A stretch of 32,996 bases of DNA, taken from NCBI GenBank assembly GCA_003250495.1, contig QKGH01000260.1:1-32996 (forward strand), read 5' to 3'. Source of the DNA: Marinobacterium sp. Its GTDB lineage: Bacteria; Pseudomonadota; Gammaproteobacteria; Pseudomonadales; Balneatricaceae. Of the stretch, positions 1,053 through 27,857 are shown one piece after another (within the stretch, counting starts at the first letter, position 1; the number at the start of each line of letters is the position of its first letter). A model generated the notes under the pieces. That model was not told the DNA's origin and did no database searches. It saw only the letters and a program-made list of their open reading frames with translations. The translations under genes and the position numbers were made by a program.

Positions 1053-1523
1053 ATGACGCCGTTGACACGTCGCCTGCAGGTGGTCGACAGCTCGCAGGAG
1101 GTTTACGTCCTGCAGGTGGCCTTCGCCACCACCGACCGGGAGTACGTGAACCAGCACTTCGGATCGGCGCGTGCATTCGCCATCTACGGGGTGAACGAAC
1201 AGTCGGCGCAGCTGCTGTCGGTGTGCGAGTTCACCGATCTGGACCAGGGCGCCGACGACAAGCTGCATGCCCGCATCGAGGCGGTCGCCGAGTGCGGTGC
1301 GGTGTACTGCCGCGCCTGCGGCGCCTCTGCCGTCCGCCAGTTGCTGACGCGCGGGATACAGCCGGTTCGGGTGACCGACGAGGGGCCGATCAACGAACTG
1401 ATCGCGGCCCTGCAGGAGGAGTTGCGACAGGGGCCTTCGACCTGGCTGGCGAATGCGATTCGCAGCCAGGGACGGGGGCGTGGACGTTTTGATTCGATGG
1501 AAGCTGAGGGCTGGGACGAGTGA
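1053..1523 (+). CDS. nifX: Nitrogen fixation protein NifX
   Basis: VAFATTDREYVNQHFGSARAFAIYGV..., VYCRACGASAVRQLL, C-terminal RFDSMEAEGWDE; ATG at 1053 lies just after the nifN stop. Confidence 0.93.
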   Translation: MTPLTRRLQVVDSSQEVYVLQVAFATTDREYVNQHFGSARAFAIYGVNEQSAQLLSVCEFTDLDQGADDKLHARIEAVAECGAVYCRACGASAVRQLLTRGIQPVRVTDEGPINELIAALQEELRQGPSTWLANAIRSQGRGRGRFDSMEAEGWDE

Positions 1524-3354: not shown

Positions 3355-4134
3355 GTGCCGCATCCGATCTACGCTGCGTTGATCCATGAAGCCCAGGGCT
3401 GTCCCGGCTACGATGCGCCGCTGGAGCGGGTCTGTATCGGGCAGGTATGGACCCTGGTGCGCGTCAACGGCTTTACCGGGTTGTGTATGACGCCGGCTTC
3501 GGCCTACACCCGTACGCTGAGCTGGCCCGGTACGTTGACCGGCCGGCGCGCCAGCGAAGTGATCGCCTGGCTCGGCAGCTGGCAGCCGTTCGAGGCCTGC
3601 CTGGCCGTGGCCACGCTGAACGCGGTATTGTCCGGGGCCGGCAAGGCCTGGGCCCTGCGCGAGGAGGCGACGCCACTGGGGGGCGGTAACCTGGCGGTAT
3701 TCGCCGCGCTTGGCGAACGGCTGCAGGGACAGAAGCTGGGCGTCATCGGACGTTATCCCGGTCTCGACCGGGTGCTGAGCGGGCTCGATTACCACTGTGT
3801 CGAGCGCAGTCCGGGGGAGGACGATCTGCCGGACCCGGCGTCCGAGTTCCTGCTGCCGGACAGCGACTGGGCTTTCATTACCGCCAGCGCGCTGTCCAAC
3901 AAGACCCTGCCGCGCTTGCTGGAGCTGGCACGGCGCGCCCGCGTCGTGCTGATGGGGCCCTCGATGCCCTGGTCGACGGTCTGGTGCGACTGGGGGGTCG
4001 ATTATCTGGCCGGGGTCGAAGTGGTCGACGAGGAGCTGCTCTGGCGCACCGCCGCCGAAGCCGGGGGCGTCAGGATCTTCGAAGGCGGCGTCGCCTATCG
4101 CCTGCTGGCCCTGAACGATGGAGCCCGTCATTAA
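3355..4134 (+). CDS. Rossmann-like DUF364/DUF4213-type protein (putative heavy-metal chelation family)
   Basis: GTG start; LGVIGRYPGLDRV... and FITASALSNKTLPRLLELARRARVVLMGPSMPWS: pattern of the PF04016-type C-terminal domain. Confidence 0.65.
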   Translation: MPHPIYAALIHEAQGCPGYDAPLERVCIGQVWTLVRVNGFTGLCMTPASAYTRTLSWPGTLTGRRASEVIAWLGSWQPFEACLAVATLNAVLSGAGKAWALREEATPLGGGNLAVFAALGERLQGQKLGVIGRYPGLDRVLSGLDYHCVERSPGEDDLPDPASEFLLPDSDWAFITASALSNKTLPRLLELARRARVVLMGPSMPWSTVWCDWGVDYLAGVEVVDEELLWRTAAEAGGVRIFEGGVAYRLLALNDGARH

Positions 4135-4710: not shown

Positions 4711-4726
4711 TGTCGCAAAACCTACA
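4711..4726 (+). promoter_or_regulatory. Candidate NifA upstream activator sequence (TGT-N10-ACA)
   Basis: TGTCGCAAAACCTACA, about 90 bp upstream of a sigma54 -24/-12 element. Confidence 0.75.
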
Positions 4727-4810: not shown

Positions 4811-4826
4811 TGGCACCGAGATTGCA
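4811..4826 (+). promoter_or_regulatory. Sigma54 (-24/-12) promoter for iscA-nifU-nifS
   Basis: TGGCACCGAGATTGCA, an exact match to TGGCAC-N5-TTGCA. Confidence 0.88.
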
Positions 4827-6133: not shown

Positions 6134-7344
6134 TGATGAGCGATATCTACCTGGACAACAACGCCACCACGATGGTGGCGCCGGAAGTGTTCGAAGAGAT
6201 GAAGCCCTACTTCTGCGAACAGTTCGGTAACCCGTCGTCGCTGCACAGCTTCGGCAACAAGGTTGGCTTTGCGCTGAAAAAAGCACGCAAACAGGTACAG
6301 GATCTGCTCGGCGCCGAACACGATTCCGAGATCATCTTCACCTCCTGCGGTACCGAGTCCGACTCCACCGCGATCCTGTCGGCGCTGAAGGCGCAGCCGG
6401 AGCGTAAAGAGGTGATCACCACCGTGGTCGAGCACCCGGCGGTACTGAGCCTGTGCGAGTACCTGGAGAGCGAAGGCTACACGGTGCACAAGCTGGAGGT
6501 GGACAGCAAGGGCCGTCTCGATCTGGACAAGTACAAGGCACTGCTCAGCGACAAGGTCGCCATCGTCAGCGTGATGTGGGCGAACAATGAAAGCGGCACC
6601 ATCTTCCCGGTGGAAGAGATGGCCAAGATGGCAGCCGAAGCCGGCGTGCTGTTCCACACCGACGCGGTGCAGGCGGTGGGCAAGATCCCGATCAACCTGA
6701 AAGAGAGCGCCATCAGCATGTTGTCGCTGTCCGGCCATAAGCTGCATGCGCCGAAGGGGATCGGTGTCCTCTACCTGCGTCGCGGCGTGCGCTACCGTCC
6801 GCTGCTGCGCGGCGGTCACCAGGAGCGCGGACGTCGTGCCGGTACCGAAAACGCACCGGCTATCGTCGGGCTGGGCAAGGCCTGCGAGATCGCTGCGGAG
6901 CATATGGCGTTCGAGAATACCGAGGTCAAGGCGATGCGCGATCGCCTCGAGCAGGGGATCCTGGCCGCAGTACCCAACTGCTTCGTCACCGGCGATCCGG
7001 ATAACCGCCTGCCCAACACCGCCAGCATCGCCTTCGAGTACATCGAGGGTGAAGCGATCCTGCTGCTGTTGAACAAGGTCGGTATCGCCGCCTCCTCCGG
7101 TTCTGCCTGCACCTCCGGTTCGCTGGAACCTTCCCACGTGATGCGGGCGATGGGGATTCCGTATACCGCGGCCCACGGTACCGTGCGCTTCTCCTTCTCG
7201 CGCTATAACACCATGGACGAGGTGGAGCGCGTGATCCAGGAGGTTCCGGGAATCGTCGCTCAGCTGCGCAAGCTGTCGCCGTACTGGGGCGAGAACGGCC
7301 CGGTGGAGAACCCGGATGCGGCCTTCGCACCGGTTTACGCCTGA
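6133..7344 (+). CDS. nifS: Cysteine desulfurase NifS
   Basis: IYLDNNATTMVAPEV, SLSGHKLHAPKGIGVLYLRRG (PLP Lys), SSGSACTSGSLEPSHVMRAMG; overlaps the nifU stop. Confidence 0.95.
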   Translation: MMSDIYLDNNATTMVAPEVFEEMKPYFCEQFGNPSSLHSFGNKVGFALKKARKQVQDLLGAEHDSEIIFTSCGTESDSTAILSALKAQPERKEVITTVVEHPAVLSLCEYLESEGYTVHKLEVDSKGRLDLDKYKALLSDKVAIVSVMWANNESGTIFPVEEMAKMAAEAGVLFHTDAVQAVGKIPINLKESAISMLSLSGHKLHAPKGIGVLYLRRGVRYRPLLRGGHQERGRRAGTENAPAIVGLGKACEIAAEHMAFENTEVKAMRDRLEQGILAAVPNCFVTGDPDNRLPNTASIAFEYIEGEAILLLLNKVGIAASSGSACTSGSLEPSHVMRAMGIPYTAAHGTVRFSFSRYNTMDEVERVIQEVPGIVAQLRKLSPYWGENGPVENPDAAFAPVYA

Positions 7345-7911: not shown

Positions 7912-8087
7912 TCCTGATTTATCGATAAACTGAGAAAAATTTTCTACATATTATCCTTTTTGTGGAAATAGTTGGAAAAATATTCCGCGCCGCTTCTCTA
8001 CAATAGTTATCCATAGCCATTCGCCAGTCAGCGCAATTCCGCGACCTGATCACCCGGCGGAGGGCGCTACCGATGAGGGGAAAGGCG

Positions 8088-9128
8088 ATGGATAACTGGA
8101 CCCAGTGGGCCATACAGCGGCTGGCGAGCGAGCGCCTGCGCACGGCCGACACGCATCTGATCCGGTTGAATATCCCGGCGCTCGAGGGGATCGAGATCTA
8201 CCTGAAGGATGAGAGTACCCATCCCACCGGGAGCCTCAAGCACCGCCTGGCCCGTTCCCTGTTCATGCATGCGATCTGCAGCGGCAAGGTCGCTGCCGGC
8301 ACCGCGCTGGTCGAAGCCTCCTCCGGCAGTACGGCGGTATCCGAGGCCTACTTCGCGCAACTGCTCGGCCTGCCGTTCACGGCGGTGATGCTGGCCGGTA
8401 CCGCGCGCAAGAAGATCGAGCAGATTGAGCGGTTCGGCGGTCGCTGCGATTTCGTCACCGATGCGACGCAGCTCTATGCCCGGGCCCGGGCATTGGCGCA
8501 GGCGTGCAACGGCCACTACATGGATCAGTTCACCTACGCCGAACAGGCCACCGATTGGCGTGGCGAGGACAACATCGCCGCCAGTATCTACCGGCAGATG
8601 GCGGCAGAGGAGCACCCCGTGCCGGCGGCGATCGTCATGAGCGCCGGTACCGGCGGCACGGCGGCGACGCTGGGGCGGCATATCCGCTACCGGGGCTATG
8701 CCACGCGGTTGGTGGTGGTGGATCCGGAAAATTCGGTGTTCTACGACAGTTTCCAGAGTCGGGATCGCGGGCTGAGGATCGCGACCAGCAGCCGTATCGA
8801 AGGGATAGGACGGCCCCAGGTCGAGGCTTCGTTCCTGCCCGAGGTGATCGACACCATGTACCAGGTGCCGGACGCTGCCAGTATCGCCACGCTGCGCTGG
8901 CTGGAGCGGTTGACCGGTCGCCGGGCCGGCGGCTCCACCGGAACCAATCTGTGGGGCGCGCTGCAACTGGCCGCGGCGATGCAGGCAGGGGGGGAGAGCG
9001 GCTCCATCGTGACCGTGCTGTGCGACGGCGGCGAGCGCTACCTGGACAGCTACTGGAATCCGGTCTGGGTGAGCGAACACCTGGGCAGTCTGCAGTCCTA
9101 TGACGCCTGGCTCAGTCGCTTAGATTGA
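8088..9128 (+). CDS. PLP-dependent cysteine synthase-like protein (possible Cds1-type L-cysteine desulfhydrase)
   Basis: PTGSLKHRLA PLP-Lys motif, EASSGSTAVSEAYFAQLLGLPF, SAGTGGTAATLGRHIRY; divergent from the Lrp regulator. Confidence 0.8.
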   Translation: MDNWTQWAIQRLASERLRTADTHLIRLNIPALEGIEIYLKDESTHPTGSLKHRLARSLFMHAICSGKVAAGTALVEASSGSTAVSEAYFAQLLGLPFTAVMLAGTARKKIEQIERFGGRCDFVTDATQLYARARALAQACNGHYMDQFTYAEQATDWRGEDNIAASIYRQMAAEEHPVPAAIVMSAGTGGTAATLGRHIRYRGYATRLVVVDPENSVFYDSFQSRDRGLRIATSSRIEGIGRPQVEASFLPEVIDTMYQVPDAASIATLRWLERLTGRRAGGSTGTNLWGALQLAAAMQAGGESGSIVTVLCDGGERYLDSYWNPVWVSEHLGSLQSYDAWLSRLD

Positions 9129-26972: not shown

Positions 26973-27029
26973 GCCGTAGCGAACAGTGGGGAAGGGCCTG
27001 GCGGAGAAGGGGCCGCCAGGCGTAACAGT

Positions 27030-27045
27030 TGTCGTGTTCACGACA
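27030..27045 (+). promoter_or_regulatory. Candidate NifA UAS (TGT-N10-ACA), perfectly palindromic arms
   Basis: TGTCGTG-TT-CACGACA, about 105 bp upstream of a -24/-12-like element. Confidence 0.65.
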
Positions 27046-27150
27046 TTTTCAGGGGCGCGCACCGGGCGGCGATTGTCGCAGGGACGACGCCTCTTTTTTT
27101 AATCCTATGATTATTAAACATTATTTTTTACCGAGCACGCAGCTGGCAGC

Positions 27151-27166
27151 TGGAGCGGCGCTTGCA
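27151..27166 (+). promoter_or_regulatory. Putative sigma54 promoter for the second NifX-family gene
   Basis: TGGAGCGGCGCTTGCA: invariant GG-N10-GC spacing and a perfect TTGCA -12 half; two mismatches in the -24 half. Confidence 0.6.
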
Positions 27167-27216
27167 GGTCCCCTGTTCTAACGGCACCCGCCGACAATAG
27201 CGAGCAGGAGAGTTCC

Positions 27217-27693
27217 ATGACTACAGAGACCGCTGTCAGCTGCATCGCCGATGCAGTCACCGATAGCCAGGCCCTGATCGTTGCCTTCGCCTCGATGGAT
27301 GGGGAGATGGTCGATCAGCATTTCGGTTCCGCGCAGGCGTTCTACGCCTGGGCCGTGACCGCCGACAGTGCCGAGCTGATCGCCCAGCAGGGTTTCGGTT
27401 ACGAGAAGAAGGATGGTAACGAGGACAAGCTGAAACCCAAGCTGACCTGGTTGGTCGGTGCCGATGTGGTCTATTGCGGCTCGATCGGTGGCTCGGCGAC
27501 CCGGCAACTGGTGATGCTCGGGATCAACCCGATACAGGTCAAGGGCGGACCCGATGTGGAGGAGCTGATCGAGGCGCTGCAGGGGCAGCTCAAAGGCGAA
27601 CCGGAGTTCTGGCTGGCCAACATCCTGAAGCAGAAACAGGCCGGCGGTGCCGACCGTTTCGATCAGATGGCGGATGAGGGGTGGGACGAGTAA
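27217..27693 (+). CDS. Second NifX/NifY-family iron-molybdenum cofactor-binding protein
   Basis: IVAFASMDGEMVDQHFGSAQAFYAWAV, VYCGSIGGSATRQLVMLGINPIQV, C-terminal RFDQMADEGWDE; clearly related to the NifX at 1053. Confidence 0.9.
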   Translation: MTTETAVSCIADAVTDSQALIVAFASMDGEMVDQHFGSAQAFYAWAVTADSAELIAQQGFGYEKKDGNEDKLKPKLTWLVGADVVYCGSIGGSATRQLVMLGINPIQVKGGPDVEELIEALQGQLKGEPEFWLANILKQKQAGGADRFDQMADEGWDE

Positions 27694-27857
27694 TCGTCCC
27701 CGCTTAGCCGCGGCACCGTCGCTGGCATTCGTGCCGGAAAGAGGGATAATGGCGCTCCCTCATTGCTTATCGGTGTCCAGGGCGCGGTGAATCCGGAACC
27801 TCTGCTACAAACGACAGCCCCGACGCGGCGCCCGGGATCGGGATCCGCGGCTTGATC

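Follow-up and report, generated by a model that had tools for sequence, protein, structure and literature searches.

A second nifX-family gene, here named NifX2, lies about 20 kb from nifS in the window (the whole stretch of DNA analysed, contig C200, 32,996 nucleotides). The locus raises the question of whether this gene belongs to the nif regulon and what its product would do beside the NifX encoded in the nif operon.

The NifX2 gene and its surroundings

The genome behind the window is incomplete (87.5%; 3.5 Mb in 490 contigs), and its closest relatives are Marinobacterium. The gene order from the contig edge is partial nifN, nifX, the gene for a NifX-associated protein, the nif-specific ferredoxin gene, a 2Fe-2S ferredoxin gene, an iscA-type gene, nifU, and nifS. 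Past nifS, which ends at position 7344, the next 20 kb or so carry ordinary genes, among them minCDE and genes for arginine catabolism, an Orn/Lys/Arg decarboxylase, and an AMP-binding enzyme. No match to nifD is found anywhere in the assembly, most likely as a result of the nif cluster being broken at the contig edge, which cuts nifN (positions 1–1051). The nifA gene and a nifB match of the same genome sit on contig C293. Two other genes in this part of the window should be noted. A DUF364/DUF4213 putative heavy-metal chelation gene (3355–4134) lies inside the nif region, and similar genes are also found near the nif clusters in loci L048, L059, and L061. A cysteine desulfhydrase gene (8073–9128; Cds1-like, below the cut-off) lies near nifS.

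NifX2 is a real, conserved gene of the NifX fold. The sequence-only reading had called it a paralog of the gene at 1053, and this assignment holds in the match to Pfam PF02579 (Nitro_FeMo-Co; E 1.3e-16, 61 bits against a curated cut-off of 26.3, within the superfamily), in the match to a solved structure, and in the tree described below; all motif and ORF coordinates of that reading were also correct when the sequence was re-read. The nearest solved structure by sequence is Azotobacter vinelandii NifX in the NifEN complex (PDB 9IAN, E 6e-37). A Foldseek search with the AlphaFold2 model of NifX2 (pLDDT 83.5) ranks the 9IAN NifX at the top, with TM 0.87 by target length, and the NafY core next. 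Comparison with one Marinobacterium ortholog (80% identity, dN 0.13 and dS 1.07 by NG86) points to strong purifying selection. The TIGR02663 equivalog cut-off (112 bits) was dropped as a discriminator for NifX, since the operon NifX of the same genome (101.1 bits) falls below it as NifX2 does (89.8 bits).

A search of phages with NifX2 gave no match, and a search of plasmids gave only nifX-type matches, all below 60% identity. We found no description in the open-access literature of a second NifX of this sort in Marinobacterium, Oceanobacter, or Teredinibacter. NifX2 is a new subfamily of a general kind, the NifX-like carriers, that is already known.

Table 1. Features of the window related to the two nifX-family genes and their predicted promoters
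Feature	Position	Strand	Remarks
Operon NifX	1053–1523	+	Paralog of NifX2, 41% identical; in the A. vinelandii NifX clade
UAS, TGTCGCAAAACCTACA	4711–4726	+	Upstream of iscA-type/nifU/nifS
Sigma54 box, TGGCACCGAGATTGCA	4811–4826	+	Pairs with the UAS at 4711; a one-mismatch IHF-like site is also present
NifA UAS TGT-N10-ACA, TGTCGTGTTCACGACA	27030–27045	+	Predicted; exact motif at most 350 bp upstream in 20/29 orthologs, mostly at −182 to −227
Putative second UAS, degenerate, TGTCGCAGGGACGACG	27074–27089	+	Not conserved; equally a weak terminator-like stem of 5 bp with a T-run after it
IHF-like site AATCATAGGATTA (plus-strand letters TAATCCTATGATT)	27100–27112	−	One mismatch; the −24 box lies 51 bp downstream
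Sigma54 −24/−12 box, TGGAGCGGCGCTTGCA	27151–27166	+	Predicted; 21/29 orthologs have TGG-N8-YTGCW close to the start, against 19/381 controls
Ribosome-binding site AGGAGAG	27206–27212	+	Read from the sequence
NifX2	27217–27693	+	Probable NifX-like second carrier, 158 aa; ATG at 27217, stop at 27691–27693; His35 and C-terminal RFDQMADEGWDE kept

Conserved promoter sites upstream of NifX2

Boxes were counted as TGG-N8-YTGCW within 160 bp of the start, and the controls are the 381 ORFs of the same loci. A UAS followed by a box, in this order, is found upstream of 16 of the 29 orthologs but of only 4 of the control ORFs; the orthologs are related, and p-values for the promoter therefore overstate independence, though the pattern nevertheless spans many genera. 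Eight of 21 orthologs carry the IHF-like pattern (WATCAA-N4-TTR, one mismatch allowed) on the minus strand, where mononucleotide shuffles predict 0.86 and none of 2000 reach 8; 1 of 21 has it on the plus strand. Six of the eight minus-strand sites are located 48–51 bp upstream of the −24 box, as is the site in the window. The promoter is credible because the UAS, the IHF-like site, and the box are conserved in order across genera, and the NifA/sigma54/IHF-type arrangement proposed from the sequence of the window stands. Its second half-UAS does not, since most orthologs have no counterpart.

It is very improbable that the promoter match is fortuitous and that NifX2 is expressed constitutively or is a remnant in decay. 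By chance alone, the window should contain about four copies of TGT-N10-ACA (four found, 3.9 expected, no enrichment), and the box at 27151 deviates from TGGCAC-N5-TTGCA. However, both the sites and their spacing are conserved across genera, and the gene is under strong purifying selection. The longer palindrome TGTCG-N6-CGACA is rare, with one occurrence in the window against 0.04 expected.

Eight of the 29 orthologs have no nearby box. In five of these, a same-strand nif or nif-associated gene lies just upstream, namely nifS (L056 and L060), a flavodoxin gene (L055), or a leucine-rich-repeat gene (L050 and L058), the one in L050 being located within the nif cluster. L061 has a box further upstream, at −230. 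L046 and L047 fit neither pattern; their UAS is oddly placed, and a box near the start is absent. The exact UAS is absent in five orthologs that have the box.

Membership of NifX2 in the NifA/sigma54 (nif) regulon, as predicted from these sites, is strongly supported. At low nitrogen, NifA bound at the UAS would contact sigma54-RNA polymerase at the −24/−12 box through an IHF-bent loop, and NifX2 would be switched on together with the nif operons, judging from the conserved sites; a nifA gene is present in the genome of the window. Transcripts may also read through from NifX2 into the transporter gene at 27852, because there is no convincing terminator after NifX2: the downstream RNA is no more stable than its shuffles (z 0.23), and the sole plus-strand terminator-like match there runs into the beginning of the following ORF.

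The window contains a second pair of UAS and box (Table 1). L140 has a similar pair ahead of its counterpart of the iscA-type gene, and Marinobacterium nifE has a pair like that of the iscA-type gene. The iscA-type ORF is listed from 4750, and its true start is probably at or after 4834. In Marinobacterium, two or three UASs and a −24/−12 box are also found at a gene near the nif structural genes, the product of which starts with MYxELxxGIxSGxIVPYLGAGAL (L139 near 3136, minus strand; L140 near 15006, plus strand; L141 near 2878, minus strand).

Distribution and genomic placement

Each of the eight Marinobacterium genomes searched has a NifX2 ortholog, as do 21 further genomes, most of them from marine Gammaproteobacteria; a scan of 84,980 species genomes yielded 28 orthologs. 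The genera include Oceanobacter, Thalassolituus, Parathalassolituus, Amphritea, Ketobacter, Mangrovimicrobium, Pseudomaricurvus, and Sessilibacter. Orthologs score 230–290 bits with the family profile, and the best other NifX in the same genomes scores about 154. In a 120-row tree, made by a quick method that leaves the deeper branching order unsure, a stem of 0.85 changes per column with an SH-aLRT support of 100 separates the 33 NifX2 orthologs from the remaining sequences. The operon NifX falls in a Pseudomonadales clade together with that of A. vinelandii, and NafY-like proteins form another clade. The phylogeny suggested as a check by the sequence-only reading thus sets NifX2 apart from bona fide NifX and from NafY alike, as a clade of its own.

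The distribution follows that of nitrogenase. In a sample of 392 genomes of the order, NifX2 is present in 12 of the 17 nifD-positive genomes and, besides the window's own, in none of the 374 nifD-negative ones (p 3e-19). The lone exception is the incomplete assembly described above. A sample of the class adds one more genome (G570), in which NifX2 lies about 4 kb from NifX. The operon nifX is kept alongside in the NifX2-positive genomes examined. Judging from these sequences, NifX2 is a conserved NifX paralog of Gammaproteobacterial diazotrophs with Mo-nitrogenase, most of them marine Pseudomonadales. Conserved sites, co-occurrence with nifD, and the tree together support the earlier proposal that NifX2 belongs to the nif regulon while lying outside the operon, has a promoter of its own, and is distinct from the operon NifX.

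The orphan placement holds for the window but depends on the lineage. In Marinobacterium, NifX2 is located about 26–39 kb from the operon nifX in the cases with both on one contig. Several relatives carry it inside or next to the nif cluster: directly before nifENX in L059 and L061, after nifS in both Amphritea, between nifK/nifY and nifENX in L050, and beside nif genes in L048 and L057. Four changes between the linked and the separate state are needed on the tree, with the states assigned by us from the loci at hand. NifX2 can thus be described as a nif regulon gene whose placement varies among lineages, some having it within the nif cluster and others as a stand-alone gene under a NifA-type promoter of its own. 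L050 (8948–11109) and L058 (676–3725) share a conserved run of DUF2750, a leucine-rich-repeat protein, NifX2, a short protein ending in DEFLWGESD, and a protein of 128 to 144 aa; neither the short protein nor the last one has a Pfam match.

Cofactor site, docking tail, and possible role

In A. vinelandii NifX, His35 binds the apex of NifB-co and residues 144–158 dock on NifE (PMC13128457). NifX2 resembles this protein (PDB 9IAN/9IAO, TIGR02663) in length (158 aa), fold, and nif linkage, and it retains the DGNEDKL segment and Arg96; it is 45% identical to it, while the operon NifX is 58% identical. His35 is invariant in all 33 orthologs, whereas NafX of A. vinelandii lacks the cofactor-binding His (PMC13128457). 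The NifX2 tail, RFDxMxDEGWD, aligns with residues 144–158 of NifX in 9IAN, and Trp156 is present in 32 of the 33 orthologs, though the tail has diverged in a few members such as L061. The residues reported to hold the tail are also kept in Marinobacterium NifE (Arg97, Glu99, Lys100, Arg101, and His104, by alignment).

The position of the differences should be noted. Unlike NifX, NifX2 is usually encoded alone, away from nifEN, and its cleft is changed at Gly88, Ser89, Gly92, Gly110, and Pro112. NifX2 has Gly88, Ser89, Gly110, and Pro112 without exception, and these residues are missing or almost missing from 43 NifX; Gly92 is also fixed, rare in the 43 NifX, and mostly NafY-like. By alignment, the five positions correspond to NafY 172, 173, 176, 194, and 196. 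NafY 172 and 193–196 line the cleft with docked FeMo-co, and Ser173 is affected by FeMo-co in NMR (PMC8496260). Only Ser89 (found in 17 of 20 NafY-like proteins but in none of the 43 NifX) and Gly92 are actually common to NafY, and the other three are private to the NifX2 clade. Clade-fixed sites make up 4 of 11 cleft positions and 8 of 113 others (p 0.012, a modest value from related sequences and a cutoff of our choice).

These observations make a cofactor-carrier role likely for NifX2. We consider, with a probability of roughly 0.72, that NifX2 acts as a NifA/sigma54-controlled second carrier at NifEN, specialized for a cofactor state or hand-over. Its His35 would bind the apex of an FeS cofactor or precursor, and its acidic C-terminal tail would dock on NifE, both as in NifX; these two steps follow from the conserved residues and the NifX–NifEN structure. 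Because the cleft differs from that of NifX at several fixed positions, NifX2 would most likely handle another cofactor state or another hand-over than the operon NifX. Marinobacterium lutimaris and M. litorale are among the culturable species in which this role could be tested.

A tentative alternative is that NifX2 is simply a redundant second NifB-co carrier, with the same cargo and partner as the operon NifX, serving dosage or back-up. All of His35, the DGNEDKL segment, Arg96, and the tail are retained, and mutual back-up among NifX-like proteins is presumed in A. vinelandii, where deletion of NifX gives no growth phenotype (PMC13128457); NifX2 may be such a back-up. However, the long separate stem and the strict clade-specific conservation of the cleft suggest a maintained difference, and both genes are kept in the NifX2 genomes examined.

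A more specific form of the specialized-carrier reading, which we regard as rather unlikely, is that NifX2 is a NifEN-tethered carrier of a late intermediate or of finished FeMo-co, between NifEN and NafY. The NifX-type tail would hold it on NifE, the cluster would sit in the altered, partly NafY-like cleft, and it would then be passed to NafY. Nitrogenase assembly has an open step at the exit of FeMo-co from NifEN (PMC13128457), and the step from NifEN to NafY has no assigned protein; NifX2 would fill it if this form were true. A carrier that co-occurs with nif and combines the NifX docking tail with an altered cleft is a concrete candidate for the exit step.

A NafY/NifY-like role had been suggested for NifX2 earlier; that it is a NafY/NifY-type chaperone delivering FeMo-co to apo-NifDK is improbable. 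NafY (PDB 1P90/2KIC) and NifY share with NifX2 the NifX-type core, the HFG motif, the SIGG loop, and Ser89 (NafY Ser173), and part of the cofactor cleft is NafY-like. Membership, however, is not supported: NifX2 forms a separate clade and lacks the N-terminal domain DIMCO_N (PF16844; a same-genus positive control matches at 80 bits), the part that binds apo-NifDK (PMC8496260), and it has kept the NifX-type C-terminal tail that is absent from NafY. Moreover, NafY-type genes are also present in the genomes. Two genuine DIMCO_N proteins are found in 16 of 17 NifX2 genomes, while the nif genomes of the order without NifX2 have none or one (two in 0 of 5). NifX2 thus tracks a second two-domain DIMCO_N protein, which could favour a chaperone role, though the co-occurrence may be only a lineage effect. 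It is also very improbable that NifX2 is the VnfX of an alternative nitrogenase: VnfX is likewise a single-domain NifX-like carrier (PMC13128457), but a search for VnfK in 18 nif genomes from the order, including 13 that have NifX2, gave no match above the cut-off, and VnfX identity was rejected.

The second two-domain DIMCO_N protein, observed in L142–L151, carries an HFGS motif and is encoded apart from the nifK-linked one.
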